A stretch of DNA of 64,000 bases from Gammaproteobacteria bacterium (lineage in GTDB: Bacteria > Pseudomonadota > Gammaproteobacteria > Arenicellales > Arenicellaceae), in contig JAKVBA010000007.1 of assembly GCA_022447525.1 (NCBI GenBank), positions 1 to 64,000 of the forward strand. Direction: 5' to 3'. Positions 47,107-63,820 of this stretch are shown piece by piece. Position 1 is the first letter of the stretch. Every line of letters begins with the position of its first letter. The notes beneath the pieces are model-generated. The model was given only the letters and a program-made list of their open reading frames with translations, made no database searches and had not been told where the DNA came from. Made by a program: the position numbers and the translations under genes.

Positions 47107-47302
47107 TAATAGGAACCTCACAGTGGCGCCCGCACTTGCTCGATTAAGTCGGCTCGTGTGCGTTGCATCAGTGTTCAAAAAAGGGTTTTTACAACGGGTT
47201 AACGCTTAATTTTATAACAAAACATGGATGCTTGCGTAAAAAAAATGTAAAACCTAGTGATTTCGTTGTCTAAATTAGGAGTTAACTCACAAAAATCAAG
47301 GT

Positions 47303-49165
47303 TTAAAGGCTGTAACAATCGCGAATATATTCTTTTAATGCAGTTTGACGAGATTTTTCATCGTCGCTCAGTATATCCAATTTGCTTTTTCGATTGAGTG
47401 CTTCAAGAGCACGCTCAGCCCTAATCAATTCGCCAGCATTAAATTCTTCGACAATTTTTGCATTATTGGCCCTGATTAAATCCAAAGCCTCCTCATCGGT
47501 AAGTTGCTCAATATTATTATGCTGGTGATTTGCAAGCTGATTTAAGGTGACTGCAAAAGCTTCGCCACGATACCTCTCCAATAACATAGCAGTAGAGGGG
47601 TTATTAGTTTGGCTGGCGACCTCATTAAGCTCATGAATCATACCAATACCCCTGACTTGCGAATCTTTAATCGGCTTAAGCAGCTCAAATTCAGCATGAT
47701 ACTTGGGAAACTGCAATAACAGAGAAACCGCCCGCCTTATCGGCGTAAGACTTTTAGGGCTAGGAGCGCGCTGCTTGGCCCTCTTTTTACTCCAAGTGCC
47801 TCTCCCCTTATTACGCCAATGATCGCCGCCAGTATCCGAGTAATTTGCTTGGTCTGCCTGCTTGCCTAGTAATTCAATGGGATCCACCTGTGTTAATGCA
47901 GACACTCTCTCTACTACCAAGGCTTTAAGTACACCAGCTTTCATGGTTTCAAGAAGGGGCTTTGCTAGTTTCCCCAACTTTGCTCGACCATCTAGTCGAT
48001 TTAAGTCGGCCTGTTGCTTAAGACTCTCAAGCAGAAACTCAGGCAAGGGCATTGCATTGGCAAGCAATTCTTTGAACCCCTGTTTGCCAACTTTCTTTAC
48101 CATGGTATCGGGGTCTTCGCCATCTGGTAAAAACAAGAAACTTACTTGATGTCCGTCCTCCAAGCTAGGCAGACAGATCTCCAGTGCTTTCCAAGCGGCG
48201 GCGCGACCGGCCCGGTCGCCATCAAAACTGAAGGTGATATTAGCAGTGTGTCTAAACAATCGTTGCAAGTGCATTGGCGTTGTCGCTGTGCCAAGCGTGG
48301 CGACGGCGTTATTGATGCCGGCCTGCGCCAGCGCTACGACATCCATATATCCTTCGACCACCAGTACGCAATCGGCTTCTTTAATCGCTCCACGAGCACC
48401 GAATAAGCCATAGAGCTCAGCTCCTTTGTGGAAAATCGGAGTCTCTGGGGAGTTTAGATACTTGGGATTACCCGGTTGCGACTCTTTTTGCGCAAGCACA
48501 CGCCCACCGAAACCAACGACGCGACCTCGATGGTCGTGAATGGGGAACATAATTCGATGGCGAAAACGATCGTATACACGACCCTTGTCATTTTTACTCA
48601 GCATACCAGTATCAATTAATGCCTTTTGAGTCGGCACCGTATCGCCTAATCGGTCCATTAAGTTTGACCAGCCCTCAGGAGCAAAGCCAAGACCAAAGCG
48701 CTTGGCGATATCACCACTGAGACCACGTTGCTTTAAATAAGCAATCGCCTGTTCTTTATCAGCATGCTGCATAAGTTGCGCTTGATAATAGTCCTCGACG
48801 CTCTCCATTAACTTGTATAAATCGACACCGGCGTTTTGCGTGTTTTTAGGCTTGTAGGGCGTGGCCTCCTCTGGAATCTCCATTCCTGCGCTTGACGCCA
48901 AAGTTTCAACCGCTTCCCGAAACTCCATATGGTCATACTCCATCAGGAAAGTGATGGCTGTACCATTCACCCCACAACCAAAGCAGTGATAAAACTGCTT
49001 GGTTGGTGACACGGTAAATGAAGGGGTCTTTTCGCCGTGAAAAGGGCAACAAGCTTTGTAGTTCGCCCCGGCTTTTTTCAAGGGCACATAACTATCAATC
49101 AAATCGACGATATCGGTTCGATTTAATAGCTCATCTATAAAATGTTGAGGTATACGCCCAGCCAT
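47303..49165 (-). CDS. dnaG: DNA primase
   Basis: This 620-residue primase makes RNA primers for replication. The CHC2 zinc-binding domain reads CCPFHGEKTPSF...FYHCFGCG. The TOPRIM domain has VLVVEGYMDVVALAQAGI and FSFDGDRAGRAAAWKALE. A C-terminal DnaB-binding domain ends the protein. In most Gammaproteobacteria rpsU precedes dnaG; here a polysaccharide-utilisation operon ends only 79 bp upstream. Confidence 0.98.
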   Translation of the reverse strand: MAGRIPQHFIDELLNRTDIVDLIDSYVPLKKAGANYKACCPFHGEKTPSFTVSPTKQFYHCFGCGVNGTAITFLMEYDHMEFREAVETLASSAGMEIPEEATPYKPKNTQNAGVDLYKLMESVEDYYQAQLMQHADKEQAIAYLKQRGLSGDIAKRFGLGFAPEGWSNLMDRLGDTVPTQKALIDTGMLSKNDKGRVYDRFRHRIMFPIHDHRGRVVGFGGRVLAQKESQPGNPKYLNSPETPIFHKGAELYGLFGARGAIKEADCVLVVEGYMDVVALAQAGINNAVATLGTATTPMHLQRLFRHTANITFSFDGDRAGRAAAWKALEICLPSLEDGHQVSFLFLPDGEDPDTMVKKVGKQGFKELLANAMPLPEFLLESLKQQADLNRLDGRAKLGKLAKPLLETMKAGVLKALVVERVSALTQVDPIELLGKQADQANYSDTGGDHWRNKGRGTWSKKRAKQRAPSPKSLTPIRRAVSLLLQFPKYHAEFELLKPIKDSQVRGIGMIHELNEVASQTNNPSTAMLLERYRGEAFAVTLNQLANHQHNNIEQLTDEEALDLIRANNAKIVEEFNAGELIRAERALEALNRKSKLDILSDDEKSRQTALKEYIRDCYSL

Positions 49166-49244: not shown

Positions 49245-50585
49245 TCACTTTACAGCCAATTCTCCTTTAGGCTTATATAGACGCACATAATCAATCAACA
49301 TTTGCACTGGAAAAATAGAATCATCAATTGGGCCACCAGCCTTTCCCCAATCTCCGCCAATCGCCAAATTCAAAATGACGTGGTAGGGGTGATCGAAAGG
49401 CCAAGCTTGCCAGCCCTCATTTTGATTCAAATAAGTAAAGTACACGGTGTCATCCATTAACACATCGATTCGTTCTGGAGTCCATTCAAGCGAGTAAACA
49501 TGAAAATCATTTGCTACATCAACCCCACTGATACTCGCTTTTCGTTGCTGACCATTCACCCAATAGTAGGCTTTAGTATGCACCGTGCCGTGGACTCGAT
49601 TCATGTCATATCCAACGTGCTCCATGATATCGATCTCGCCTGAATTTGGCCATGCATTACAGGTGTTACTGCCATGGATATCTTCATTAGGTTTACAGGT
49701 GGATGCGTATTTATAAGGATCGCTCGGCAACATCCAAATCGCCGACCATGTGCCCTGCCCTGCGGGAAGTTTTGCCCTCACGTCTACACGCCCGTACATC
49801 AAGTCGGCCTTGTTCATAGTGTGGATACGCCCACTAGAATAACCATCAATTTCCTTATGGGCTTCTATGATTAGTGTTCCATCCTTTACTCTTAGATTTC
49901 TACTATCGGCGGTATAAGCCTGATCTTCGCGATTTACTTTGCCCTTCGGCCAAACATCGATGTTCCACTTGGAGCCGTCCACGTCGCCGGCCTGATCAAA
50001 TTCGTCAAACCAAACCATTTCCCATTGATCGTTTTTACCCGGTGATTTTCGAACCTGTAATGCAGAGACAATAGGAAGACCATTCTGCTTTGAAAAATCA
50101 ATCTGCAATGTCCCTTTATCTACAATCACTCCCATGACAGTATGACTTAGACCTGCGTGAATATTTCCATCACGCAACTTGCGGACATCTAAGGATGTCA
50201 TCACGGGCTCGCCCTGAGCTATGATATCAAAAGTACGTTTACCAACTTCTACTGAATCAGGTTCAGCAAAATGAAAGGTTAAATCATAAGTCCCGTTATT
50301 CAACAGTAGATGCTCACTGAACTCGCCCAAACGATACGTTTGAAAAAGCTCGGATTCTTGTATGCCATTGACGCTGTCTATACGACCTGTTTTAAAGTCT
50401 GAAATAGCCGGATCAGCATTGTAAACAACCCCCGTTTTGGATATAAATTTATCGCCTCCGTAGTTAACTGCCCAACTGTCACGCGCCCCTTGTGCAAGGC
50501 TCGTCGACAATGGAATTAATAGCAAAATAACGACATAAAATATTCTCGTTAAGACTGTCGGGGTATTCATAGTCATTGTTGGCAT
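49245..50585 (-). CDS. Secreted GH16 beta-glucanase with malectin-like domain
   Basis: This 446-residue protein has a signal peptide (cleavage near LAQG, residue 33) and a malectin-like carbohydrate-binding domain (about 38-180, with LNNGTYDLTFHFAE). The catalytic GH16 domain (about 187-440) has the active site GEIDIMEH with nucleophile Glu317, Asp319 and acid/base Glu322. The type resembles laminarinases that cut beta-1,3-glucan. It is the last gene of a six-gene locus with a TonB receptor and halogenases, 120 bases after the preceding halogenase. Confidence 0.93.
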   Translation of the reverse strand: MPTMTMNTPTVLTRIFYVVILLLIPLSTSLAQGARDSWAVNYGGDKFISKTGVVYNADPAISDFKTGRIDSVNGIQESELFQTYRLGEFSEHLLLNNGTYDLTFHFAEPDSVEVGKRTFDIIAQGEPVMTSLDVRKLRDGNIHAGLSHTVMGVIVDKGTLQIDFSKQNGLPIVSALQVRKSPGKNDQWEMVWFDEFDQAGDVDGSKWNIDVWPKGKVNREDQAYTADSRNLRVKDGTLIIEAHKEIDGYSSGRIHTMNKADLMYGRVDVRAKLPAGQGTWSAIWMLPSDPYKYASTCKPNEDIHGSNTCNAWPNSGEIDIMEHVGYDMNRVHGTVHTKAYYWVNGQQRKASISGVDVANDFHVYSLEWTPERIDVLMDDTVYFTYLNQNEGWQAWPFDHPYHVILNLAIGGDWGKAGGPIDDSIFPVQMLIDYVRLYKPKGELAVK

Positions 50586-50705
50586 GTCTTTAATTCTTCA
50601 AAAATAATTTTAAAGATCAAGTGATGACAAAGCGACCGAAACAAGGACAGTTCGTCTGCGCTCAAATCCTTTTCAGCGCATTTCATGAAGCAACAAGTTA
50701 AAATC

Positions 50706-52205
50706 TCAGAAATTTACTGCTGCACTGGATCTACAGTAGTGATTTATGAACTCTTGATGACTCGGTAACTGGCCAACTAAGTTAGTGACGCCTTGGGCTA
50801 TGGTGGCAAGAAACTGTTTAAGTTCGTCGTCTGTCATCATATTTACAATAGGGTGGTATTGCTCTGGTAGCAAACCCTGACCAAGCATGACCTGTGTCCA
50901 TGAGTTTTCCCCAAACAACTCGGTAGGCACTTTAAAAACTCTGCCTGTTTGTTTGAATAACTCAATACGATGAGCCAATGAATCAGGAATATCCATATTT
51001 TTGCAGAACCGCCAAAATGGCGTATCCTCTCGTTCGGTCACATTGTAGTGCAAGACAATAAAGTCGCGAATATTCTCAATCTCAAACATCATTTGAGAGT
51101 TGAATTCATCTACATCTGGCTGACGAACTCCATCGTAAGGAAACATCTGCATTAGGCGCGTTATTGAACGTTGGATAAGGTGAATGCTTGTTGACTCGAG
51201 AGGCTCGATAAATCCACTGGAAAGCCCCATGGCTATGCAGTTTTTATTCCAGTGCTTGCGCCGTGTTCCAGTTTGAAATTTGAGCACTCTCGGATCATTT
51301 AATGTCTTGCCTTGAACATTTTCTGTCAGCGTAGAAATCGCGGCATCATCCGACAAATATCGACTACAAAAGACCAGCCCATTGCCTGTTCTGGTTTGCA
51401 ATGGAATTCGCCATTGCCAACCGGCGTCTCTAGCTATAGATCTGGTGTAGGGTATTGGTTCTTGTACAGATTCAGTTTGCACCGCTACCGCACTGTCGCA
51501 TGGCAACCAATGAGTCCAGTCTTCGTAACCTGTGTGTAGTGCTTGTTCAATCAACAACCCCCTAAAACCACTGCAATCAATAAACAAGTCACCCTCAACG
51601 GTTTGACCTGACTTGAGACTGACGCTTTGAATAAAGCCGGTTTCAGGGTGCAGATTAACGTCTACTATCTGTCCTTCTTGTCTTACTGCGCCGTTTTCCT
51701 CGGCGATTTTCCGCAGGAATCCAGCATATAGGCCAGCATCTATATGATAAGCGTAGTTCAAACCTTGCTTGGGAGTGACGGCAAACTTATTGTGCTCAGC
51801 GGCCACTAACTCGCCACAGTATTGACCAAACTCTTTGGCGATACCCATTTTATGGCCCTTCAACCAAAAGTGCTGAAAGCCCGCCGCCCAACAATCTCGA
51901 CCAGTAAAACCAAACGAATGTATATAGTCTTTACCTACATCCCTCCAATTTTCAAAGGAGATGCCCAATTTGAAAGTTCCATTAACCGCCGCGACAAACT
52001 CTTGCTCGTTGATTCCAAGTAAATCATGCAAACTTATGAGTGTAGGAATAGTGGCTTCTCCAACCCCAACGGTCGGAATTAGATCCGACTCTATCAAGGT
52101 GATATCGAGGGTTTTTCCAAGTAACTTTGCCAATGATGCGGCGGCCATCCAACCGGCAGTGCCTCCTCCAGCTACGACGACTTTTTTAATTTTAGTGTGT
52201 TGCAT
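50706..52205 (-). CDS. Flavin-dependent tryptophan-halogenase family protein (B)
   Basis: This 499-residue protein has FAD loop AGGGTAGW (about 12-19), catalytic Lys79 in NGTFKLG (the same number as PrnA), the halogenase motif WQWRIP (263-268) and GFIEPLEST (331-339) with the catalytic-type Glu-Ser pair. All key residues of a tryptophan halogenase are present. It has no signal peptide. It lies in a TonB-receptor operon, where such proteins are common but no substrate is known. GGGGGAGG precedes the ATG. Confidence 0.92.
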   Translation of the reverse strand: MQHTKIKKVVVAGGGTAGWMAAASLAKLLGKTLDITLIESDLIPTVGVGEATIPTLISLHDLLGINEQEFVAAVNGTFKLGISFENWRDVGKDYIHSFGFTGRDCWAAGFQHFWLKGHKMGIAKEFGQYCGELVAAEHNKFAVTPKQGLNYAYHIDAGLYAGFLRKIAEENGAVRQEGQIVDVNLHPETGFIQSVSLKSGQTVEGDLFIDCSGFRGLLIEQALHTGYEDWTHWLPCDSAVAVQTESVQEPIPYTRSIARDAGWQWRIPLQTRTGNGLVFCSRYLSDDAAISTLTENVQGKTLNDPRVLKFQTGTRRKHWNKNCIAMGLSSGFIEPLESTSIHLIQRSITRLMQMFPYDGVRQPDVDEFNSQMMFEIENIRDFIVLHYNVTEREDTPFWRFCKNMDIPDSLAHRIELFKQTGRVFKVPTELFGENSWTQVMLGQGLLPEQYHPIVNMMTDDELKQFLATIAQGVTNLVGQLPSHQEFINHYCRSSAAVNF

Positions 52206-52227
52206 AATAATCCTCCCCCAACAGTAA

Positions 52228-53241
52228 CTACGCTTTCAAAAAATGTATCAATTGTTTTTTAATTTGAGTGACGTCATCCTTAGACAGCTCGCCTAAAACA
52301 CCTTTCGCAGCTGAGTCTATGTATTCGAAAGATCGCTTATTGGCATCAAAAAGATAGTAGTTGAAAAGCTGCTTCCAACTTTCTTTCTGCGATTCAGGCA
52401 ACCCACTAAATACCATTAAGCTATGCTTCAAAGCTAGCAACGGCGAACCCAAGTAAGGCGGCGTAACTCTCCACCAGTAGTTCACTAGAGCACTGTGTGA
52501 ATCGAATGACTCAACTTGATGCCACCACATACTGGGTATATAAATCGCATCACCGGGTTTCAGCTCGGCATGCTGAGCTTGGTTTTGTGCGATTGTGAAA
52601 TTTGGAAATTCATCGAGATCTGGCTCTCGAGTATCGACCATGCTAATTGGTTGGCCACTGGGGGTAAAATCAATCGACCCAGGGTACAAATTAGCAATTT
52701 GATCTGGCGCAAATAAGGTGAATTTTCGAGTACCGGAAACCACACACGCTAAGTTCTCCGGAAAGTCAAAATGTGGCGCCACCAGAGTTTGATTTCCAAG
52801 CCAGAGACTCACCAGAGTATCCATGCCATTGAACTCGATATCGTTGCAATCCCTGATCCCAGGAAACCAGTGATCTAACATTGTCGAGCCCATATACAAA
52901 GTATCGGGTTCAGACACATTAGCTAACTCATCCAACCTGTTGAAAAATTCTCCAAACGGTAGTTGCATTCTTTCAAAATTGAAACCAGTTTGGGACTCGT
53001 TGTAAAAAATTCGCCCCTTAGCTGATGCAGGTGCTTGGTAAACCGTTACAGGTCTGTCGACTGCATAGCGACCCAAATATTCTCTAAACACATTACTGCC
53101 GTCGAGCGCCGAAACTACTAATGGCCAATCAGACACCAAGCCTCGCACCACCTGCGGCGACTGGTACTCACCGTTTAAAAATTCGACGATATCGAATTCT
53201 TCAACGCTAATTTCATTTACCCAATTTTGCATCGACGGCAC
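52228..53241 (-). CDS. Cupin/JmjC-like (cupin_8) protein
   Basis: This 337-residue protein resembles the cupin_8/FIH-type 2-oxoglutarate dioxygenases. An iron-binding HFDFPEN region (about 180, HxD) and a later RKFTLFAPDQ strand with GDAIYIPSMWWHQV (second His) are visible. It may hydroxylate a protein or small molecule. It starts at GTG 53241 directly after the sapC stop (or at ATG 53232), so translation is coupled. Members often sit beside SapC and tryptophan halogenases in TonB-receptor loci. Confidence 0.87.
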   Translation of the reverse strand: MPSMQNWVNEISVEEFDIVEFLNGEYQSPQVVRGLVSDWPLVVSALDGSNVFREYLGRYAVDRPVTVYQAPASAKGRIFYNESQTGFNFERMQLPFGEFFNRLDELANVSEPDTLYMGSTMLDHWFPGIRDCNDIEFNGMDTLVSLWLGNQTLVAPHFDFPENLACVVSGTRKFTLFAPDQIANLYPGSIDFTPSGQPISMVDTREPDLDEFPNFTIAQNQAQHAELKPGDAIYIPSMWWHQVESFDSHSALVNYWWRVTPPYLGSPLLALKHSLMVFSGLPESQKESWKQLFNYYLFDANKRSFEYIDSAAKGVLGELSKDDVTQIKKQLIHFLKA

Positions 53242-53970
53242 TTAACTCTGCTTGCTTAGTTTTTCGCCCTTCAATCGAGCTAAATCTCCGATACACGAAT
53301 GCGATGCCAAGATCATGAATAATGGTTGTAAATAGCCTTTTTCATTCAAAGCAGCGAATTGATCACCGGTTAATTGTTTTAACGCATCTTCATTAATGGT
53401 GTAGAAGCCTAGCAACTGATTGGCACTACCATTTTCAAGAGTCACGTCTAAGGTAAACGCTTCCACTAGACCAAGATCTACAATATGTTTGGCAAACTCA
53501 GTTCCGTGCAAATGCCCCTGATGAATGTATTCAAGTCGCGCAATTGCCGCCTTAAGATATTCACTTTGACCACCATGCTCCAGAAACAGTCGCTCGCCTT
53601 GATCAGATGATACTTTTGGATTATCCATATCGATGGTAACTACTGGCTTTTTTTCATCGCTTTCTGGATTGGCCTGAAACCCTATCAAAAAAGGCTGACG
53701 CTGGATCATAAGTGGGATGTAGCTACTGGCCCAGCCTTGTTCATTAAGGAATAAGTTTTCTCCTTCCTCAAAGCCAAGCAACGCAACACATTGAAACTCT
53801 CCAGTGTCAGGAGTTTTTTGCAAAAAAATCGGAAAATGTCCTTGCACACTTCTAAACTCAAAAGGGAAGGTCTGCACAACTCTGACCGCGTCACCTAGAT
53901 CTGCTCCATGCTCGACGATAACTCGCAGATTTTTATGCTCCTCGGGATTTAGCAGTTGAAAATTACTCAT
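53242..53970 (-). CDS. SapC family protein
   Basis: This 242-residue protein matches the SapC family (PF07277): FRSVQGHFPIFLQK, the ENLFLNEQGWASSYIPLMIQRQPF core and FTLDVTLENGSANQLLGFYTINE. SapC was named from the Campylobacter S-layer locus, but its biochemical role is unknown. In this setting it accompanies TonB receptors and halogenases. It has no signal peptide. It lies 9 bases after halogenase A and abuts the cupin gene. Confidence 0.9.
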   Translation of the reverse strand: MSNFQLLNPEEHKNLRVIVEHGADLGDAVRVVQTFPFEFRSVQGHFPIFLQKTPDTGEFQCVALLGFEEGENLFLNEQGWASSYIPLMIQRQPFLIGFQANPESDEKKPVVTIDMDNPKVSSDQGERLFLEHGGQSEYLKAAIARLEYIHQGHLHGTEFAKHIVDLGLVEAFTLDVTLENGSANQLLGFYTINEDALKQLTGDQFAALNEKGYLQPLFMILASHSCIGDLARLKGEKLSKQS

Positions 53971-53979
53971 ACTTTTTCT

Positions 53980-55530
53980 CTAAATGGACTGAAAACCATA
54001 TTGGCGAACCTTTTTCAAAAGGTCTCTATTTGTTGGTAGCGCAGTTGATAAACCACGGGCCTTTTCTATGTTTTGTTGAAACAAGATATCTGCTTGCTTT
54101 TTTTGCTCGGGGACTAACCATTCCGGTTCGAGCCTAGTATCGTGGTGCATCCCATATAGCACATACTGATAACTAGCAGCGGGAAACAGTGCATCAATAT
54201 GCGGAGTATCAAGCAACCATGGAGTAGCTATTTTCCAAAGTTCCAGATTTTCTCGTAACGAGTCGGGGATCCCCGAGGGCTGTAAATGCGCTTGCCAATA
54301 TTCTTCAGTACGTTTAGTGAGCACATAATGGAGCTTCAGAAAGTCGACAATTTCACGCCAATGGCGGTTCATCATGGCGTTATATCTTCTCGCTATTGGA
54401 GATAATGCGCCTTTATTCGACGGTAGATGTTCTCGTACAAATTTTGCCGCTGTTTCTACCATGACCAAGGCCGAGGCTTCAAGCGGCTCAACAAAGCCCG
54501 CCGATAGGCCGATTGCCACACAGTTATTTACCCAGAAAGTCTTTCGTTTGTTAGGCGAAAAGCTGATCTTTCTAGGGGAGAATTCATGCCTTTGCACTGC
54601 GCACCCAGACTTTACTAAGTATTGGTAGAGTTCTTCTGAAGCTGCGTCTTCACTGATAAAGTCGGAGCTGTGCACATACCCGACACCTCGCCTTGTTGGC
54701 AGAGCGATATCCCAAATCCATCCAGAGCTCTGGGCCGTACCTAGTGTGCACGATTCAATTGCTGATGACTCCTCAGGATGAGGTACTTGCACAGCTAAAG
54801 CCGAGTCATTAAAAAGAACATCTGACAACTGTATTTTTTCGATACCAAAATGGCCTTCGATTAGTTTGGCGTGGAAACCCGTACAATCTATAAAAAAGTC
54901 GCCAATAATTACTTCCCCGGTATCGCAATCTAATTGGGTTATATAGCCATCTTCATCATTAGAAACTTTCCCCACGTTAGCCAATACGTGTTCAACACCC
55001 AATTTGTCGATGCAGTGCGCTGAAAGGAATGACGCAAACTTGCCAGCGTCGAGATGATAGCCATAATTAAGATTGAAGGCGTATTCAGGGGTAGTGATTT
55101 GTTTGGGGGCCAACCCCCTCTCACACATTAAGCTTTGCACCCCAACGGCGTTTGCAAAAGAGACTTTATCTTTGTGTATTTGCCAGTGATCGGCCAAGTT
55201 AACTTCCGAGTATCCCTCGGGCAGAGAAAACGGATGGTAATAGTAATCATCACCACCACTTTCCCAACCCACAAACTTAGAGCCTTGTTTGAAACTGGCA
55301 TCACATTGATTAAAAAAGTCTGATTCAGAAACACCGATTGTTTGCAACGTGGTTCGCATTGAGGGCCAAGTTCCCTCACCAACCCCAATGATCGGCACAT
55401 CGGGTGATTCCACCAACGTGACACTTACTTCTTGTTCAGATCGATCAAAACGCGAGGCCAATAACCCTGCGGTTAACCAACCGGCGGTACCACCACCAAC
55501 GACGACTATTTTTCTAATATTTTTACGCAT
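53980..55530 (-). CDS. Flavin-dependent tryptophan-halogenase family protein (A)
   Basis: This 516-residue protein has FAD loop VGGGTAGW, Lys81 in DASFKQG and GVGEGTWP, so the fold and the key lysine are kept. Two halogenase positions differ from the classic enzymes. The WxWxIP motif reads WIWDIA (271-276), and the GFVEPLEAS segment has Ala where PrnA has Ser next to the catalytic Glu. It may be a halogenase with altered chemistry or another flavin monooxygenase. It lies upstream of sapC, behind a terminator that follows the receptor gene. Confidence 0.9.
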   Translation of the reverse strand: MRKNIRKIVVVGGGTAGWLTAGLLASRFDRSEQEVSVTLVESPDVPIIGVGEGTWPSMRTTLQTIGVSESDFFNQCDASFKQGSKFVGWESGGDDYYYHPFSLPEGYSEVNLADHWQIHKDKVSFANAVGVQSLMCERGLAPKQITTPEYAFNLNYGYHLDAGKFASFLSAHCIDKLGVEHVLANVGKVSNDEDGYITQLDCDTGEVIIGDFFIDCTGFHAKLIEGHFGIEKIQLSDVLFNDSALAVQVPHPEESSAIESCTLGTAQSSGWIWDIALPTRRGVGYVHSSDFISEDAASEELYQYLVKSGCAVQRHEFSPRKISFSPNKRKTFWVNNCVAIGLSAGFVEPLEASALVMVETAAKFVREHLPSNKGALSPIARRYNAMMNRHWREIVDFLKLHYVLTKRTEEYWQAHLQPSGIPDSLRENLELWKIATPWLLDTPHIDALFPAASYQYVLYGMHHDTRLEPEWLVPEQKKQADILFQQNIEKARGLSTALPTNRDLLKKVRQYGFQSI

Positions 55531-55589
55531 GCGCTAGAGCATAACTCATTCTTTGTCAGCCTGGGCTGAATAACCCTTCTTCAGTATAG

Positions 55590-55630
55590 AAAAAAACAAA
55601 AAGGTCACTGCTTGCTTACAAGCAGTGACC
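55590..55630 (-). terminator. Terminator between the receptor and halogenase genes
   Basis: A perfect 12-bp stem GGTCACTGCTTG/CAAGCAGTGACC with a 4-base loop (55603-55630) is followed on the minus strand by TTTTTGTTTTTTT (55602-55590). It lies 41 bases after the TonB receptor stop and 60 before halogenase A, inside an otherwise colinear operon. It would let the receptor be made in excess of the downstream genes. Confidence 0.9.
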
Positions 55631-55670
55631 AAATTGCCTAGTAACATCTGAGCAACTTGTATAAAGAAGC

Positions 55671-58568
55671 CTAGAAGTTATAACGAGCTCCTATATTGAA
55701 ACGCGCGCCCCCTTGGAATGCTTGGATTACTTGACGAATATCACGACCATAAGTTCTTCGAGTTTCATCGGTGATATTAATGCCTTCGACGAAGACGGTG
55801 AGCCTGTCGTTGACATTGTAGCTCGCGCTCAAATCAAACTGACCATAGTCTTCGACATTAACCGGTCCAGGAGTTCCAGATGAAGCGCCGGCGATCCCAG
55901 CAAAGAAATCGCCTCGCCAGTTATAGGCCAAACGCACTTGGATATTTTCCTTGTCATAAAAACCAATTAGGTTATATGTATCACTCAAACCAGGAAGAGC
56001 AAACTGGGTATCAAGGCTAGCATTGTCATAGCCGACGTCACCGTCAACAAGCGTCATATTTGCAATCACACCAAACCCTGAATCACCAAAGGTTTTTTGT
56101 ATGGCAAATTCGAACCCATCTAGGGTGGCGTCTTCTTGGTTTTCTGGCACGGTCACATCAAAGGTCACGGGTGCACCAGTCGCTGGATGAATTAGATCTG
56201 GAAATAGGACTTCGTCCTGCAATGTGGTTATGCCGATGAAGTTTTCCACGTCTTTTCGGTAGTACCCAACCGATGCGTAATCCGACTCTCCGAAATAGTA
56301 CTCAAAAGACACATCGATATTGTCTGATTCAAAAGGTAGTAACTCAGGGTTACCACGTGCTCCATTACCGCCACTAACACGAATTAAGGTATCTATAGTT
56401 TGGCCACCCTGAATATCAATGTAATTAGGCCTAGTAATGGATTGACTCAAGGACAATCGCGCGACCAAGCTATCCGTAAGTTCGAACTTCAAATCCAAAT
56501 TCGGCAACAAATAATCGTAGTCGCCGCGTAACTCGGTAAAAACAGATTGGCCTGTGGGTATCGCATCAAATTCATTGCCCCCGGTTTGCACCACAGCTCC
56601 GTACTCAGGCACCAACGCTTTGGAGACCACGTCAGTATCTTCATACCTAAGTCCTGCTTTGATATTGACTGGAATATCTCCAAGCTGTCGATCTAAGTTA
56701 AATTGAATATAAGCAGACGTTGATTCCTCCGTCGTTCGTCGATCCGTGGTGAAATCTGTGCTGGCACACAGTCCAGTTCCGCAATCACCACCCGTGGATT
56801 GTGTCGCGCCAAGTTGTTCTGTGCGTCTTGCAACTGCATCAATATCAAAAGTGAAAAACTGCGTTTGTCGTCGTGCATCATTACCATTTGAGAACTGATC
56901 AAAGGCTGACGAAGCGTCAGCAGGCGTTAACAAATCGGCTATATCGCCAGGCTGTGTGGTGCCACCCCAGGTGTTTCTTTGTACATTTGAAAACTGCGAT
57001 GTGTTTTCTACGTCTGTCAATTGCACCCCAAAGTTCACGGAGCTAGTATCTGTAAAATCGAAAGTGCCGTGAGTACTCACCTGCTGGATTTCCATTTTTG
57101 TTTTCTTATTATCGAAAACGCTTCCCGTGACAATCGCATCGTTCGGATCCAGCGGTCGTGAAAGGCTTAGCTCTAGAATCGGAACATCACCATCAAAATA
57201 ACCAGTTGTAATATCACGCGTAAAACTCGCTATAGCTAATTGAGAAGCGGTGCCGTTTGGACCATTTGCACCGCTCTTTGCTTGTGAATCATGTGCATCA
57301 AACTCGAAGCTCAAACGATCATTCACCTGCCATTCAAGATTAATACCTATCGAGTCATTTTGAGTTTTTACACCGTCGCGACCAGCCGCCATGGCAAAAT
57401 CAGGGGCAGCACCAACTTCTGTGTACACCAGAGGTGACGCTACCGGACCGTCAGTAAACTCAGTTTGCTGACCCGCAAAGTTAAACCAACCAGAGTAGTT
57501 GTTGAACGTGCGTTCGAAATCAACCTCAGAATAGGTGTAGTCAACCGTAGCTCGGACAGCATCATTCGGTTGCCATTGCATGGTCAACTGACCATTTAAA
57601 CGCTCGCGCGAGAATTCAGCTATTTCATAGCCAATGCTTTGTGGTACTGCGTAAATATCTTCGTTACCGGGTCTATTGATTTGATCGGCATTTCTGGGAA
57701 TACCACCCCATTGCTGAATCGTATTGGGGTTACCCCAATCGTTATCTATGATTCCGTTGAAGTTGTTATAGTCGCCAACAGTTGCTGTATTCAGACCACT
57801 GTCTCTTTCTTGATAACTACCTGTAATGGCTATACCAAACGTATCATCGGCGAATGTATCGCTAAAAATACCTGACAGCTCTGGTGTTAGAGAGCTTCCC
57901 TTATCAGTTGAGGTATCGTGTACGGTTTTTAATTGAACAACTGACTTTCTACCTGGTGAATCAAGCGGCTTAGTGGTCTTAATATTAATTGTCGATCCAA
58001 TACCACCGGTTGGCATGCTAGCATCTGATGTTTTATAAATTTCTACCCCGGCTATCCCTTCAGAGGCTAAATCAGCAAAGTCAAAAGATCGGTTGTCACC
58101 ATCGTGAGTTGGCATTTGTCGACCGTTCAGAGTCACCAGATTGAATTCTGGCCCAAAGCCACGAACCGTTACTTTGCTGCCTTCACCTCGAGATCGATCG
58201 ATTGATACACCGCTGATACGTTGTAATGATTCAGCCAAGTTTGTATCTGGAAAAACACCAATGTCTTCGGCAGAAATGGCATCGACAACACCACTGGCGT
58301 TTTGCTTGATGTCTCTTGCTCGCTGCAAACTAGCTCGGATACCAGTTACCACAATTTCTTCCATCTCACTATCGGCTACCGTTGTCTGCGACATTGCCGA
58401 TGATGGAACCATGATGGCTCCCCCCATAATCAAACTGATAACTGCTGAGCGAGAAAGGTTCTTTGAGGATGTTGCCAAGGACACGGCGTTAGCCAACTTG
58501 GTTTTACGATTCAAGATTGGGTTAGCCGACTCCTCAATATGCAGCCCCAGCTCTCTACTAAATGACAT
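55671..58568 (-). CDS. TonB-dependent receptor of the large PUL type
   Basis: This 965-residue outer-membrane receptor has a long N-terminal region, with signal sequence around residues 38-60, and TonB box MEEIVVTGIRASLQRARDIK. The plug carries FPDTNLAESLQRISGVSIDR and TVRGFGPEFNLVTLNGRQMP, and the barrel ends in FNIGARYNF. This matches the TIGR01782 group linked to glycan uptake. With GH16 and GH3 genes nearby, beta-glucan oligosaccharides are the likely ligand. AGGAG lies seven bases before the ATG. It is divergent from the AraC regulator. Confidence 0.95.
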   Translation of the reverse strand: MSFSRELGLHIEESANPILNRKTKLANAVSLATSSKNLSRSAVISLIMGGAIMVPSSAMSQTTVADSEMEEIVVTGIRASLQRARDIKQNASGVVDAISAEDIGVFPDTNLAESLQRISGVSIDRSRGEGSKVTVRGFGPEFNLVTLNGRQMPTHDGDNRSFDFADLASEGIAGVEIYKTSDASMPTGGIGSTINIKTTKPLDSPGRKSVVQLKTVHDTSTDKGSSLTPELSGIFSDTFADDTFGIAITGSYQERDSGLNTATVGDYNNFNGIIDNDWGNPNTIQQWGGIPRNADQINRPGNEDIYAVPQSIGYEIAEFSRERLNGQLTMQWQPNDAVRATVDYTYSEVDFERTFNNYSGWFNFAGQQTEFTDGPVASPLVYTEVGAAPDFAMAAGRDGVKTQNDSIGINLEWQVNDRLSFEFDAHDSQAKSGANGPNGTASQLAIASFTRDITTGYFDGDVPILELSLSRPLDPNDAIVTGSVFDNKKTKMEIQQVSTHGTFDFTDTSSVNFGVQLTDVENTSQFSNVQRNTWGGTTQPGDIADLLTPADASSAFDQFSNGNDARRQTQFFTFDIDAVARRTEQLGATQSTGGDCGTGLCASTDFTTDRRTTEESTSAYIQFNLDRQLGDIPVNIKAGLRYEDTDVVSKALVPEYGAVVQTGGNEFDAIPTGQSVFTELRGDYDYLLPNLDLKFELTDSLVARLSLSQSITRPNYIDIQGGQTIDTLIRVSGGNGARGNPELLPFESDNIDVSFEYYFGESDYASVGYYRKDVENFIGITTLQDEVLFPDLIHPATGAPVTFDVTVPENQEDATLDGFEFAIQKTFGDSGFGVIANMTLVDGDVGYDNASLDTQFALPGLSDTYNLIGFYDKENIQVRLAYNWRGDFFAGIAGASSGTPGPVNVEDYGQFDLSASYNVNDRLTVFVEGINITDETRRTYGRDIRQVIQAFQGGARFNIGARYNF

Positions 58569-58874: not shown

Positions 58875-60035
58875 ATGTCTGAAGCTATCCTAAATTTTCA
58901 TGATGCCGTGATACTTTCGGTTACATTTCAGAGCCTTTGTTTTGCGCTGTTAATTCTTCTCGCAAAACGAGAAAGACATATAAGCGATTGGTTTCTTTGT
59001 GGGTTCTTCCTAGCTCAAGCCGCTATTCCTATTCATTTAATTGTGAACTTTAGCGAAATGGTTAAAGAACCCGCCATGACCCTATCTCCGAATCTGTTCC
59101 ATCTTTTTGAAACAGCATATTGGATTGAAGGACCCTTACTACTTTTGTACACACGCGCTCTGCTCTATCGAGAGTTCCATGTCCAAAAAACTGATGCTAT
59201 TTATTTTGTACCGGTCGTGTTCTTCATAGCTTATTTATCGGCTACTTTTTACAGCCTCAGTAATACGGAGAAAATCCTCTATATTGAAGAGTTTTACGAA
59301 CCTGTTGCTCCATCAGTGAGACACTTACTACAAATAACCCGCGAAACAGTATTTGTGGTGTTTGGATTTGCGTGTATTAATGAAATTTCAAAAGCACAAA
59401 AGCAAGCTCATGAACGTTACGCCAACGTAAAACGAGTCGATTTTTTTTGGTTAAGTATCTTGGTTTCTGGATTTATGGTTACTCGCACTTGGAACCTTTT
59501 AGTAACGAGTATTTCGTTTTTCAAGCCAACTCTGGGGCCTGAAATCTACAACGCGCTTGGTTTACTCAGTAATTACCTAACGTTTGCCGTGATTAATGTG
59601 TTGATGTTCTTTAGTTTGACTCGCTCTGATAAAATGGCGGGGAAAATTGTTCAAAACTTTGGCAGTAGCCTCAGCAACTCTAAGGTTTTCTCGCGGGAGT
59701 TTAAGGAAACAATTGATCGGCATATGAGATCGAATCGCCCTTATAAATCTCACTTTTTCAGTATTGAAGTGATGGCAAACCAACTTGACGTAGATCCAAG
59801 CAATTTGTCTGAAGCTATCAAGGGGCATTTTGATAAAAATTTTAGTGAATACGTCAACGGCTTCCGGATCGAAGAAGCCAAGCAGTTACTTTCAGATCCT
59901 GAGAACGCAAGCAGCCCTATGTTGGATGTTTTAAGTAGAGTCGGTTTTGATAGTACAGCTACGTTTAAAGCGACATTTAGACGCAATGTTGGCATGAGCC
60001 CTCAGCAGTTTAGAAAAAACTGCGCTGAGGATTAA
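58875..60035 (+). CDS. AraC-family regulator with N-terminal membrane domain
   Basis: This 386-residue protein has about seven membrane helices (about 10-245) and a cytoplasmic AraC double helix-turn-helix (about 285-380), including VMANQLDVDPSNLSEAIKG and DVLSRVGFDSTATFKATFR. It shares its architecture with the protein at 834-1841. It lies first in an operon with a LytS-type kinase and a LytTR regulator and is divergent from the glucan receptor. It is therefore the best candidate to switch on the locus in response to a periplasmic signal. Confidence 0.9.
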   Translation: MSEAILNFHDAVILSVTFQSLCFALLILLAKRERHISDWFLCGFFLAQAAIPIHLIVNFSEMVKEPAMTLSPNLFHLFETAYWIEGPLLLLYTRALLYREFHVQKTDAIYFVPVVFFIAYLSATFYSLSNTEKILYIEEFYEPVAPSVRHLLQITRETVFVVFGFACINEISKAQKQAHERYANVKRVDFFWLSILVSGFMVTRTWNLLVTSISFFKPTLGPEIYNALGLLSNYLTFAVINVLMFFSLTRSDKMAGKIVQNFGSSLSNSKVFSREFKETIDRHMRSNRPYKSHFFSIEVMANQLDVDPSNLSEAIKGHFDKNFSEYVNGFRIEEAKQLLSDPENASSPMLDVLSRVGFDSTATFKATFRRNVGMSPQQFRKNCAED

Positions 60036-60042
60036 TACTCAA

Positions 60043-61155
60043 GTGGCGTATTCCAACATGACCAACGACCACTTCCCTTATTTCTGGCGACTTCAATTCG
60101 TCTATTGGGGTTCGTTCTCGGTGATTACCACTACCTCTCTATTCTTTTGGGGGGAGCATATTACGATCGAGCACTTGTTGTTGATATTCCTTCATTCTCT
60201 CCTAGCCTTCGGTTTATCTTTTCCACTGCATATTATCTATAGCCTTATTTGGAAAATGGCAACCATCCTTAGGGTTATCATAAGCGTTAATTGTGTGCTT
60301 TTGGGTGCGGGCTTTTGGGTCATATTGCGAGGCATTCTGGTAAAACTAACCATCACCGAGGAACAAGACTGGTTTAGCATTGGTGCTTGGTATTTCGGAA
60401 TGTTGTATGCGCTTTTGGGTTGGGCCGCGTTCTACCATGGCATAAAGTATTTTTTCTTGATGCAAGAAGAGCACACCCGGGCACTTTCTGCCGAAACAGC
60501 AGTATCAAATGAACAAGTTAAGAGACTCCAGGCTGAGTCAAAAGCCAAGGATGCAAAATTGAAGATGCTGCGATATCAGCTCAACCCTCATTTTCTGTTT
60601 AATACCCTCAATGCAATCACATCACTTGTTCGCATACAAGCGAATAACAGAGCACAAGAAATAACAATAAAGCTAAGCCAGTTCTTGCGCTACACCCTTG
60701 ACAATAATCCCAATACCAAAATCCCACTAAAACAAGAGATAAATATTCTTGGGATGTATTTAGATATTGAAAAAACAAGATTTCAAGAACGCTTAATTCT
60801 TGAAATCAACATCGATAAGAACGCTGAGGAGGCACTGATTCCGAGCTTGTTGCTGCAGCCGTTGATCGAAAATTCGATGAAATACGCTATTGCTAAAAAT
60901 GAGAATGGCGGCAAGATCAGTATTAAAGCGTCGACAATTGGAACAACACTGCAAATCACGCTATCTGATACCGGCTCACCTGAAGTCGTTCGTCCAAACA
61001 AAATTGCTTCCAGAAAGGGCCGAGGCATAGGTTTAAAAAACACAACCGATCGTCTCCGCGCATTTTATAACGATTTGTATGAATTCGATTTACAGGGCAA
61101 CCACGAAGGCGGTCTGACCACAGTCATCACTATTCCATTCGAGATCCGAGAGTAA
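60043..61155 (+). CDS. LytS/AlgZ-type sensor histidine kinase
   Basis: This 370-residue kinase has four membrane helices (about 22-140), a short coiled linker (about 145-172) and the His_kinase domain with phosphorylated His183 in YQLNPHFLFNTLNAI. An ATPase domain has GRGIGLKNTTDRLRAFY. The frame opens at GTG 60043; ATG 60058 is an alternative start. It lies 7 bases after the AraC gene and 4 before the LytTR regulator, so the three form one regulatory operon. Confidence 0.92.
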   Translation: MAYSNMTNDHFPYFWRLQFVYWGSFSVITTTSLFFWGEHITIEHLLLIFLHSLLAFGLSFPLHIIYSLIWKMATILRVIISVNCVLLGAGFWVILRGILVKLTITEEQDWFSIGAWYFGMLYALLGWAAFYHGIKYFFLMQEEHTRALSAETAVSNEQVKRLQAESKAKDAKLKMLRYQLNPHFLFNTLNAITSLVRIQANNRAQEITIKLSQFLRYTLDNNPNTKIPLKQEINILGMYLDIEKTRFQERLILEINIDKNAEEALIPSLLLQPLIENSMKYAIAKNENGGKISIKASTIGTTLQITLSDTGSPEVVRPNKIASRKGRGIGLKNTTDRLRAFYNDLYEFDLQGNHEGGLTTVITIPFEIRE

Positions 61156-61159
61156 TTTC

Positions 61160-61972
61160 ATGAACACTTTGAAAACCATCATTGTTGACGATGAGTCTCT
61201 AGCGCTCGATTTATTAAATCACTATTTACAGTCATACCCGGAAATAGAAGTTGTCGCACAATGCAAAAATGGCAGAGAGGCAATCGAAAGTTGCGTTAAC
61301 TTACAAGCAGATCTACTTTTTTTGGATATCCAAATGCCCGGTTTGAATGGTTTTGATGTCGTCACAAAACTACAAAGCGATGAATTACCAATGATTGTAT
61401 TTGTTACTGCTTACGATCAATACGCTCTCGCGGCCTTCGACGTGCACGCTGTTGACTATCTATTAAAACCAATCGATGAAGCTAAGTTAGCGAGAGCTGT
61501 TTCTCGCTGTGTCAACCGGTTTCGAAGCTCGGGTCGAGACTCGCTCTTTAAAAACAAAATGCTCGAAGCGGTGTCGTCGATCCAAAAGCCATCACTTTCA
61601 GATGCCACAAAAACTTTAGACGATAAAGATTCTTCATTCCCCAAAATCGTGGTTAAAGACCGAGGCACTATCACATTGATTGATCAAGCAGACATAGATT
61701 GGATAGATGCCGCTGGAGACTATGTCTGTATCCATGTAGATGGCATCACGCACATAATGCGAAACACAATGAAAGGCATAGTTAGACAACTCGACCCCAG
61801 TCTTTTTCAGCGAATTCATCGCTCCAGCATTGTTAATTTGAGTCGTATCAGAAAGGTAATCCCACATACCAAAGGAGAGTGCTATTTAGATGTAGGAAAT
61901 AATGAACGAATTAAAGTTAGCCGGAATTACCGAACCATCATTCAAGACTATCTTCAGAAAATAAGTGAATAG
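61160..61972 (+). CDS. LytTR-family response regulator
   Basis: This 270-residue regulator has a receiver domain with Asp56 in LLFLDIQMPGLNG and VDYLLKPID. The C-terminal LytTR DNA-binding domain (about 165-265) has VVKDRGTITLIDQADIDWIDAAGDY and FQRIHRSSIVNL. It pairs with the kinase just upstream, like AlgR/LytR systems. The likely targets are the divergent receptor operon or the GH3 genes, but this is inferred from position. It is convergent with the GH3 gene, 6 bases apart. Confidence 0.93.
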   Translation: MNTLKTIIVDDESLALDLLNHYLQSYPEIEVVAQCKNGREAIESCVNLQADLLFLDIQMPGLNGFDVVTKLQSDELPMIVFVTAYDQYALAAFDVHAVDYLLKPIDEAKLARAVSRCVNRFRSSGRDSLFKNKMLEAVSSIQKPSLSDATKTLDDKDSSFPKIVVKDRGTITLIDQADIDWIDAAGDYVCIHVDGITHIMRNTMKGIVRQLDPSLFQRIHRSSIVNLSRIRKVIPHTKGECYLDVGNNERIKVSRNYRTIIQDYLQKISE

Positions 61973-61978
61973 CTTTAA

Positions 61979-63820
61979 TCAACGATAATTCAGGCCGTAT
62001 CCGATCGGAAACCGAGCATTCAAACCACGCTCTGAATTTTCAGCACTATCCCTAGGCCAATCGAATGGTAGCTTCCCCACAAAGTCTAGCTTACCCAACA
62101 AAACTTCAGCTACACCCTGCCCCTCACTGCCCGGTAGCCAAGCTGCGACAAATGCATCAGTCAAATCTAACTCTAGGTCTATCTGCAGAGGTCGACCAGA
62201 AATTAGCACTGCAACAATGGGGATATTTTTATCAGACAAAGATCTCAGCAATCTCAGATCTTCGGGGTGCAACTCAGATAATTTTGTTGACGTTCCATAA
62301 GGCTCCAAGACTTTCATTAATCCCCGAATTTGCGAGCCAGCCTCTACAATATCATTTTCATTAGTTCTTATATCACCTAAGCCTTCAGCATAAGGCGTTT
62401 CACCGATCACCGCTACTGCGACATCGAAATCATTGGGCTCGATCTGCTCTACTCTATCTTGCTCAACATAAGTCACTTGTTCATGAAAACCAACTAAGCC
62501 ATTTAGAATACTGGTACCACCCGCTATATCTTCGTTACCACTAACACCCTGCCATGCAATCGTAAATCCTCCACATTGATGACCTATGTTGTCCGCATTT
62601 TTACCACAAACCAATACTCGATTTTGTTTTTTAATGGGTAATATACTGTTGTCGTTTTTCAAGAGTACGAGTGATTGAGCCACCGCATTTTTCGCCAGCT
62701 GACGATGCTTTTCACCACCAAAACTAGAGTGATTTGACCAAGCTCGTGCCGAGGGTTTTACTTGATCTAGTAACCCAGATGCGGCTTTTACACGAAGAAT
62801 GCGTCGAACTGCGTCGTCGATTCGCGACATCGACACTGAACCAATTTCAACGTGTTGAGTAAGATACTCAATAAAACGTTGCCACTCCTCCGGCACCATA
62901 AACATATCTATGCCGGCATTAACCCCCAATGCAACCGCTTCGTAGTAGTCTTGCGAGAGATAATCAATTCCATCGAAGTCTGATACCACGAATCCTGAGA
63001 ATGCCAGTCGTCCTTTAAGCTCTTGCTGTAATAGAAAACGATGACCGTGACATTTATCACCGTTCCAGCTATTGAATGAGACCATAACGGTCATGGCGCC
63101 AGCCTCTAATGCGGGGTAGTACGGCAGCATGTGTACGCGCTCAAGATCTTGGTAGGAGAGTGTGGTCTCGCCCTGATCTATGCCTTTGGTTGTACCGCCA
63201 TCACCAACCCAATGTTTTACACACGAAATCACACCATCATCGTCATACGAACTTTGCAAACCATCGACAAAAGGTGCCGCGTAGTTAGCTACCAGTACTG
63301 GATCTTGTGAATATGACTCATACATTCGGCCCCATCGATTACTTTGAGCAACCGCAAGGGTTGGTGCGAAGGTCCAGTCAACGCCAGCGGCTAAAACTTC
63401 TCTGGCCGTTGCAGAGGCTAATTTTTGCATTAACTCTGGATTACGCGCTGCACCCAAGCCAATGTTGTGAGGAAATACAGTCGCACCCAAAACATTATTA
63501 TTGCCGTGAATTGCATCGACACCATAAATGATGGGAATACCTAAGTGCCTTTCATCTTTAGATGTGGAAGCATGCCAATATTCATCAGCCATCTGAACCC
63601 AGTCAGCCAATTGATTATCTCCCGGGCAAGAACCACCCCCACTAAGAATAGAGCCGATGTGAAACTTCCTTGCTTGTTCGGGAGAGCAAAACAATCGCTC
63701 TGCTTGTGTCATTTGACCTATTTTTTGCGCAAGGCTCATGTTTTCAAGCAGCTGTTCTATTCTTTTTTCGACAACTTGATTGCTGAAATTTATGTGTTTG
63801 CTCTCTACTGCCTTATTCAT
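61979..63820 (-). CDS. GH3 beta-glucosidase
   Basis: This 613-residue GH3 enzyme has a TIM-barrel domain (about 20-355) with GIPIIYGVDAIHGNN, KHWVGDGGT and the nucleophile Asp281 in VVSDFDGID. The alpha/beta sandwich domain (about 380-610) follows. There is no signal peptide, so it likely cuts imported oligosaccharides in the cytoplasm or, if exported by another route, in the periplasm. It lacks the C-terminal fibronectin-like domain present in its upstream neighbour. The ATG overlaps the stop of that neighbour by 8 bases. Confidence 0.93.
   Translation of the reverse strand: MNKAVESKHINFSNQVVEKRIEQLLENMSLAQKIGQMTQAERLFCSPEQARKFHIGSILSGGGSCPGDNQLADWVQMADEYWHASTSKDERHLGIPIIYGVDAIHGNNNVLGATVFPHNIGLGAARNPELMQKLASATAREVLAAGVDWTFAPTLAVAQSNRWGRMYESYSQDPVLVANYAAPFVDGLQSSYDDDGVISCVKHWVGDGGTTKGIDQGETTLSYQDLERVHMLPYYPALEAGAMTVMVSFNSWNGDKCHGHRFLLQQELKGRLAFSGFVVSDFDGIDYLSQDYYEAVALGVNAGIDMFMVPEEWQRFIEYLTQHVEIGSVSMSRIDDAVRRILRVKAASGLLDQVKPSARAWSNHSSFGGEKHRQLAKNAVAQSLVLLKNDNSILPIKKQNRVLVCGKNADNIGHQCGGFTIAWQGVSGNEDIAGGTSILNGLVGFHEQVTYVEQDRVEQIEPNDFDVAVAVIGETPYAEGLGDIRTNENDIVEAGSQIRGLMKVLEPYGTSTKLSELHPEDLRLLRSLSDKNIPIVAVLISGRPLQIDLELDLTDAFVAAWLPGSEGQGVAEVLLGKLDFVGKLPFDWPRDSAENSERGLNARFPIGYGLNYR

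Follow-up and report, generated by a model that had tools for sequence, protein, structure and literature searches.

A halogenase-SapC-cupin cassette linked to TIGR01782-type TonB-dependent receptors, and its candidate role in receptor modification

Why should a bacterial sugar-uptake locus carry two flavin-dependent halogenase homologues? The question is raised by a 64,000-nucleotide stretch of an Arenicellaceae gammaproteobacterium (GenBank assembly GCA_022447525.1, contig JAKVBA010000007.1, positions 1 to 64,000; hereafter the window), where an initial annotation had described six colinear genes running from a large TonB receptor to a glucanase. Pfam and NCBIfam profiles confirmed this group: the six genes lie intact on the minus strand, and their families scored well above the profile cut-offs. 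In transcript order they encode a TIGR01782-type TonB-dependent receptor (965 amino acids (aa), 55671..58568; TIGR01782, 663 bits against a cut-off of 310, profile positions 1-868), the flavin-dependent halogenase homologue HalA (516 aa, 53980..55530; PF04820, Trp_halogenase, 382 bits), SapC, placed in its family by profile (242 aa, 53242..53970; PF07277, 218 bits against a cut-off of 28.9), a Cupin_8 protein, that is, an FIH-like 2-oxoglutarate (2OG) Fe(II) oxygenase (337 aa, 52228..53241; PF13621, 228 bits), the flavin-dependent halogenase HalB (499 aa, 50706..52205; PF04820, 642 bits) and a glycosidase with malectin and GH16 domains (Pfam) and an N-terminal hydrophobic segment (446 aa, 49245..50585). 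The successive intergenic gaps measure 140, 9, 0, 22 and 120 base pairs (bp). The malectin-GH16 gene is a glucan-locus gene and lies outside the conserved cassette HalA-SapC-Cupin_8-HalB. The receptor is the constant partner of this cassette and, as argued below, its proposed substrate.

Linkage to one receptor class

A SapC scan of GTDB genomes yielded 31 loci, 14 of which share the exact order receptor-HalA-SapC-Cupin_8-HalB (the cupin open reading frame (ORF) being split in L034); a shorter core of receptor, HalA and SapC was found in other loci of the scan. Seven more congeneric species, none of them represented among these loci, have the full five-gene order as well; in one, a contig end truncates the receptor. 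Alphaproteobacteria carry a form that lacks HalA. For instance, Sphingobium sp. RAC03 encodes receptor, SapC, cupin, halogenase, GH16, LacI, MFS and GH3 in succession. In nine genomes, picked because they carry SapC cassettes, 44 of 49 full-length PF04820 genes were located ≤8 kb from a TIGR01782 receptor, where about two would be expected, and a halogenase was found near 30 of 74 TIGR01782 receptors versus 1 of 75 other TonB-type receptors. Overall, the linkage was about twenty-fold above chance. A neutral sample of 150 Pseudomonadota genomes was added, in which 13 of the 15 halogenase-bearing genomes also encode a TIGR01782 receptor, compared with 20 of 150 overall (p 4e-12). PF04820 matches in archaeal and E. 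coli control genomes disappeared at E ≤ 1e-40, Caulobacter excepted.

The remark in the initial annotation that such cassettes recur beside TonB receptors was thus borne out, and a functional linkage of cassette and receptor is strongly supported. That the genes were co-transferred with carbohydrate loci by chance, without any functional link, is hardly credible, because the order recurs in 14 loci and seven more species, is kept across classes and accompanies a linkage far above expectation, and because the catalytic residues are conserved; the location of several cassette copies on megaplasmids is the one feature that would suit such a scenario. Whether the families also occur independently of TonB receptors, a point on which the annotation had made its proposal depend, was answered differently for the different families. 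Genes of the HalA and HalB lineages nearly always lie close to a TIGR01782 receptor, whereas SapC often stands without halogenases nearby (71 of 110 SapC loci) and Cupin_8 genes were also found outside cassettes.

The cassette is modular. HalA adjoined SapC in 9 of 9 cases in the nine genomes, HalB in only 10 of 33; HalB often occurs alone and sometimes with DUF6445 (PF20043), a frequent extra cassette gene (e.g., L027:13280-13990, L035:13319-14032, L145:12321-13034, L292:9172-9888) that lies directly 3′ of HalB in several loci. Such free occurrence of enzyme subsets fits independent action on one target and argues against a small-molecule pathway. We therefore consider it unlikely that the cassette synthesises or tailors a small aromatic compound bearing halogen or hydroxyl groups (an indole, phenol or peptide) that serves as signal, antimicrobial or public good during sugar import, even though the nearest characterised relatives, Xcc4156 and BrvH, halogenate free indoles in vitro and the variant-A fold is typical of small-molecule halogenases. 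No synthesis or export genes are present at the cassette, in line with the earlier statement that product-synthesis genes are missing, and a search of the gap between receptor gene and HalA for a conserved small ORF resembling a ribosomally synthesised and post-translationally modified peptide (RiPP) returned none. Moreover, every receptor locus comes with a separate copy and its own enzyme subset, and variant halogenase/Cupin_8 sets lie by receptors of different sugar loci.

The sugar context of the cassette proved to be variable. In the window's genome the same modules were found with a receptor beside SSF and GH1 genes (C157), beside GH13 (C24), beside NagA/NagB-like genes (C171; assigned by sequence judgement) and beside GH36 (C222, a short contig from which the receptor is absent). 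In other genomes, modules lie beside agarase and β-galactosidase, α- and β-galactosidase, or α-amylase genes, and no sugar genes flank a Sphingomonas copy. The specific tie to glucan assumed in the initial annotation is thus not upheld: receptors for β-glucan, α-glucan, N-acetylglucosamine (GlcNAc) and galactosides are all accompanied by the cassette, the receptor is the constant, and since the sugar type varies while the receptor stays, the function of the cassette is not glucan chemistry. This breadth also bears on the idea that the enzymes act on aromatics arriving with the imported glycan (phenolic aglycones or algal phenolics), as detoxification or catabolic preparation. The marine or phycosphere hosts, the β-glucosidases at the locus and an algal-phycosphere Sphingobium with the same locus would agree with it, but the cassette is also found with maltodextrin, GlcNAc and α-galactoside receptors, whose sugars need not carry aromatics, and no ring-cleavage or efflux genes were seen alongside it, which renders the idea improbable. 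Modification of another protein, such as a surface or secreted glycanase, a TonB-system protein or a regulator, would be compatible with glycanases as usual neighbours and with SapC being a broader family that is found near secretion-type genes in the absence of halogenases too and takes its name from a Campylobacter fetus S-layer locus. Only the receptor is constant, however, while glycanases, regulators and transporters vary by locus, and we regard this explanation as quite unlikely.

Features of the cassette enzymes

A motif table and a tree resolved HalA and HalB as two separate lineages. HalB matches the profile of flavin-dependent tryptophan-type halogenases, has the canonical motifs WQWRIP and EST together with the catalytic Lys and Glu, and aligned with Xcc4156 (6Y1W) with 650 bits over 490 residues. 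HalA matches the profile as well and retains the catalytic Lys and Glu, but shows WIWDIA and EAS instead of the canonical WxWxIP and the halide-site EST; its lineage follows the patterns WxWDI[GA] and EA[ST], and its nearest solved chain is 2PYX. The catalytic Lys and Glu are retained in 86 of 89 halogenases, the three without them being divergent extra copies (L203, L206, L210). These third copies (L203:3481, L206:3994, L210:3041; also L269) are found beside active copies in alphaproteobacteria and are possible pseudoenzymes. In the window's own genome, a HalB homologue by an α-glucan receptor is represented by two ORFs (L018:8741-10239; frameshift or assembly error), and the receptor retains its P-x-x-W-G loop. 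In a phage record (MT835646.1:12000-15221, Bacteriophage sp., faeces), about 1 kb separates SapC from a HalB-like gene; the record is probably a mislabelled bacterial contig. A Trp-halogenase family gene 33% identical to HalB sits on a 6,886 bp plasmid of Acinetobacter lwoffii (NZ_CP019147.1) that is present in three records.

LodB, GoxB and QhpG are flavin maturases that act on protein-bound Trp and are encoded beside their target protein. In analogy, HalA and HalB could be monooxygenases in vivo that hydroxylate a receptor Trp without any halogenation. A weak similarity to QhpG, LodB and GoxB exists, and the altered WxWxIP motif of HalA and its EAS for EST could be taken in the same sense. 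Yet the halogenases scored only 19-32 bits with the LodB/GoxB/QhpG profiles, whose cut-offs are 240-400, both proteins keep the Lys typical of halogenases, and HalB combines all motifs with its closeness to Xcc4156. A purely hydroxylating role is thus very improbable.

The Cupin_8 protein contains the metal site H157-x-D159...H241, a triad that was invariant in 11 of 11 sequences, and belongs to the 2OG-Fe(II) oxygenase family. For SapC, AlphaFold2 (AF2) gave a confident model (predicted local distance difference test, pLDDT, 94.6), and a Foldseek search with this fold against PDB and BFVD found no match at E ≤ 0.001. Standalone SapC loci (L102-L180), which make up most of the phylum sample, lack a nearby halogenase, and some of their neighbours resemble HlyD, M50 and peptidyl-prolyl isomerase (PPIase) genes; two of them, L178 and L179, encode a SapC with a long C-terminal extension bearing a hydrophobic segment.

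DUF6445 proteins share an invariant H-x-D...H...R pattern, and their predicted structure matched 2OG dioxygenases such as OGFOD1 and KanJ in Foldseek (E ~5e-5, TM-score 0.4-0.5). On this basis, we predict that DUF6445 is a 2OG-Fe(II) dioxygenase. No DUF6445 match was found in the window's genome. SapC-DUF6445 pairs without HalA were seen at L042 and L044, and the receptor beside one such pair (L042:12546) has an HCSFCGY loop. Genome G124 holds a receptor-less HalA-SapC-DUF6445 set (L159) and a receptor with an HCTFCGY motif (L187) on different contigs, and this separation suggests that the set acts in trans.

A receptor tryptophan loop as candidate target

The notion that the cassette may modify the receptor, one of several offered in the initial annotation, gained support at sequence level from a Trp-containing loop of HalB-linked receptors. 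In β-glucan-type receptors adjacent to HalB, the loop Trp is followed by Gly in 23 of 24 cases and by Ala in the other, within the patterns [QR]-[DN]-[TND]-W-G-G or L-G-[DN]-W-G-[VIA]. The corresponding residue of the window's receptor, and the proposed HalB target, is Trp534 (W534; codon TGG, 56967..56969, minus strand) in the loop FSNVQRNTWGGTTQPG. The W-G loop was confirmed in loci outside the discovery set, namely in Sphingobium, Sphingomonas, congeners, Pseudoalteromonas and Catenovulum. Receptors of α-glucan type adjacent to HalB carry P-x-x-W-[GS] in another loop (18 of 18). Three sister receptors without HalB (L183, L190, L279) align on either flank and lack exactly the P-x-x-W insertion; the genome of L279 (G090) contains no halogenase anywhere. 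As the tree places their clade next to the HalB-linked L271 (support 0.87), a joint loss of HalB and the Trp insertion is suggested. L271, which is linked to GH3/GH30, has the insertion and the GH97-linked L190 lacks it, indicating that the Trp loop tracks HalB better than glycan class. A search for recognisable truncated cassette genes at the contig ends by the unlinked receptors L058 and L187 revealed none. Co-variation of Trp site and HalB, compared with phylogeny left out, was strong in the α-glucan clade and weak elsewhere, and Fisher values for the loop motifs are descriptive only, given that they derive from hand-tabulated counts that predate the plasmid test and ignore phylogeny.

Several observations weigh against the receptor, or this Trp, as substrate. 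P-x-x-W-G is also present in L282 and L285, neither of which has HalB next to it (L285 lies on a plasmid with a HalB at another position), the cassette-less L221 and L223 of the β-glucan clade still possess the Trp as W-S, and in a third receptor clade the Trp motif does not discriminate. No single residue common to every linked receptor emerged from a scan. In one clade, the HalA-only receptors have C-x-[FY]-C-G-Y in common, which other HalA-SapC receptors lack. The loops were chosen post hoc, after inspection, and the linked label tracks receptor phylogeny (11 changes versus 34 in shuffled data), so that the Trp-loop counts are not independent. The loops are assumed to be extracellular, and the Trp loop could alternatively be a glycan-binding element that is correlated with HalB for another reason.

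Further candidate sites were dismissed. R150 and D424 as universal modified residues both follow phylogeny, the N883-W884 motif is conserved in unlinked clades too, and an N-terminal receptor extension considered as leader peptide is not conserved. The Trp content of linked receptors was slightly lower rather than raised. As a general HalA site, C-x-[FY]-C-G-Y fails in L019, L265, L268, L239 and L290; it is limited to one clade, and we thus propose no HalA site.

By simple hydropathy, a signal-like hydrophobic N-terminus is missing from all four cassette proteins, while the receptor (residues 42-56) and the GH16 protein have one. Between receptor gene and HalA, an intrinsic-terminator-like hairpin was detected (55603..55630, minus strand) with a perfect, G+C-rich 12 bp stem, a 4-nt loop and a T tract. 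Comparable hairpins occur in 17 of 42 receptor-to-enzyme gaps versus 3% of mononucleotide shuffles. An evenly transcribed unit is therefore improbable, and the single operon of the initial annotation, which had overlooked the hairpin, is probably not the case. Since these terminator-like structures sit between receptor and enzyme genes, the receptor is probably made in excess over the enzymes.

Taken together, we consider it nearly an even call that HalA-SapC-Cupin_8-HalB is a receptor-dedicated modification cassette whose cytosolic enzymes modify the cognate TIGR01782 receptor prior to export, HalB doing so at the loop Trp (W534). More tentatively, and with clearly lower confidence, HalB might be a dedicated protein halogenase that brominates or chlorinates the conserved loop Trp of its cognate glycan receptor, while the FIH-like oxygenase, HalA-SapC and DUF6445 contribute additional marks. 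What the data above show is the genetic linkage, the conserved gene order and catalytic residues, the modularity, the correlation of Trp loop and HalB, and the terminator-like hairpin; from these we infer that the receptor is the substrate, and likewise which residue is modified, by what chemistry, what SapC does and what is gained. Under the proposed mechanism, the enzymes would work in the cytosol, because they have no signal-like segment and draw on reduced flavin or 2-oxoglutarate and O2, and would meet the TonB receptor ahead of its export. HalB would halogenate the Trp of the W-G motif, most likely by bromination, or possibly hydroxylate it; the FIH-like oxygenase would hydroxylate another receptor side chain, and HalA, in need of SapC, would modify a second receptor site. 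SapC may hold and present the unfolded receptor as a scaffold or chaperone, and the terminator past the receptor gene would keep the enzymes scarce relative to an abundant substrate. We speculate that the modified aromatic loop tunes glycan binding or hides the receptor from phages and bacteriocins.

The wider locus and its relation to known systems

The initial annotation had placed the six genes correctly, but the locus extends beyond the receptor gene. Divergent from the latter, an AraC-type regulator (58875..60035, plus strand; Pfam HTH_18), which is found beside the receptor in congeners too, is followed by a LytS-type histidine kinase (60043..61155, plus strand; Pfam), a LytTR response regulator (61160..61972, plus strand; Pfam) and a GH3 β-glucosidase-like enzyme of the glucan context (61979..63820, minus strand; Pfam), for which the best NCBIfam match, below cut-off, was an exo-β-1,3/1,6-glucosidase. 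More GH3, GH16 and transporter genes of the same locus are located outside the window, among them a 459-aa MFS/GPH-like protein just outside it (assigned by sequence judgement only). At the other end, RpoD-like and DnaG-like housekeeping genes (45277-49165, minus strand) directly 3′ of the GH16 gene mark the limit of the locus.

The literature searched, with subscription papers outside its coverage, contained no report joining SapC and a halogenase, none linking a halogenase to a receptor and no function for the cassette, in agreement with its description as a group without assigned function. The enzyme families themselves are already known; the receptor-linked system is not, and its chemistry is inferred. 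BrvH-like and Xcc4156-like halogenases are used by enzymologists without knowledge of their natural substrates, and this clade is now tied to one outer-membrane receptor class, with one residue named as candidate target. If the receptor is the substrate, the cassette would represent a novel type of modification of the bacterial surface, one that would bear on the uptake of algal glycans and on receptor recognition by phages and bacteriocins; if HalB is indeed a protein halogenase, receptor halogenation would be widespread in bacterial sugar uptake. In addition, DUF6445 gains a probable enzyme fold, and SapC is marked as an unsolved fold.

Compared with known systems, the locus resembles the CUT loci and polysaccharide utilisation loci of Gram-negative bacteria (PMC1790865), as it combines receptor, GH16, GH3, transporter, AraC and kinase/regulator genes; a full-text search of CUT-locus papers (PMC1790865, PMC2996990) found no halogenase, SapC or cupin. 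Campylobacter fetus SapC, which shares the PF07277 family name, lies in the S-layer locus sapCDEF (PMC4943207), whereas the SapC described here is an obligate companion of HalA next to a receptor. The Cupin_8 protein is related to protein hydroxylases of the FIH/JMJD5/JmjC type (63 bits to FIH) and keeps their H-x-D...H, but is alignable over only about 180 residues at low identity. Should the hypothesis hold, HalA and HalB would share with LodB, GoxB and QhpG an arrangement in which the gene of a flavin enzyme adjoins that of the protein with the modified Trp, although by the bit scores given above they are not members of that family. Among halogenases, the relative MibH acts on a Trp of a lanthipeptide (PMC8269204). 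Together with the three maturases, it sets a precedent for related enzymes that act on a Trp within a peptide or protein. BrvH and Xcc4156 halogenate indoles, but not free Trp, in a halide-dependent manner, and their native substrates are not known (PMC5945002, PMC7336383); the BrvH gene has a second halogenase gene adjacent (PMC5945002), and none of these three papers mentions TonB. HalB belongs to the same lineage as BrvH (6FRL) and Xcc4156 (6Y1W) and has the same catalytic motifs. The activity described for those enzymes concerns indoles only, whereas the gene context of HalB points to a protein substrate.

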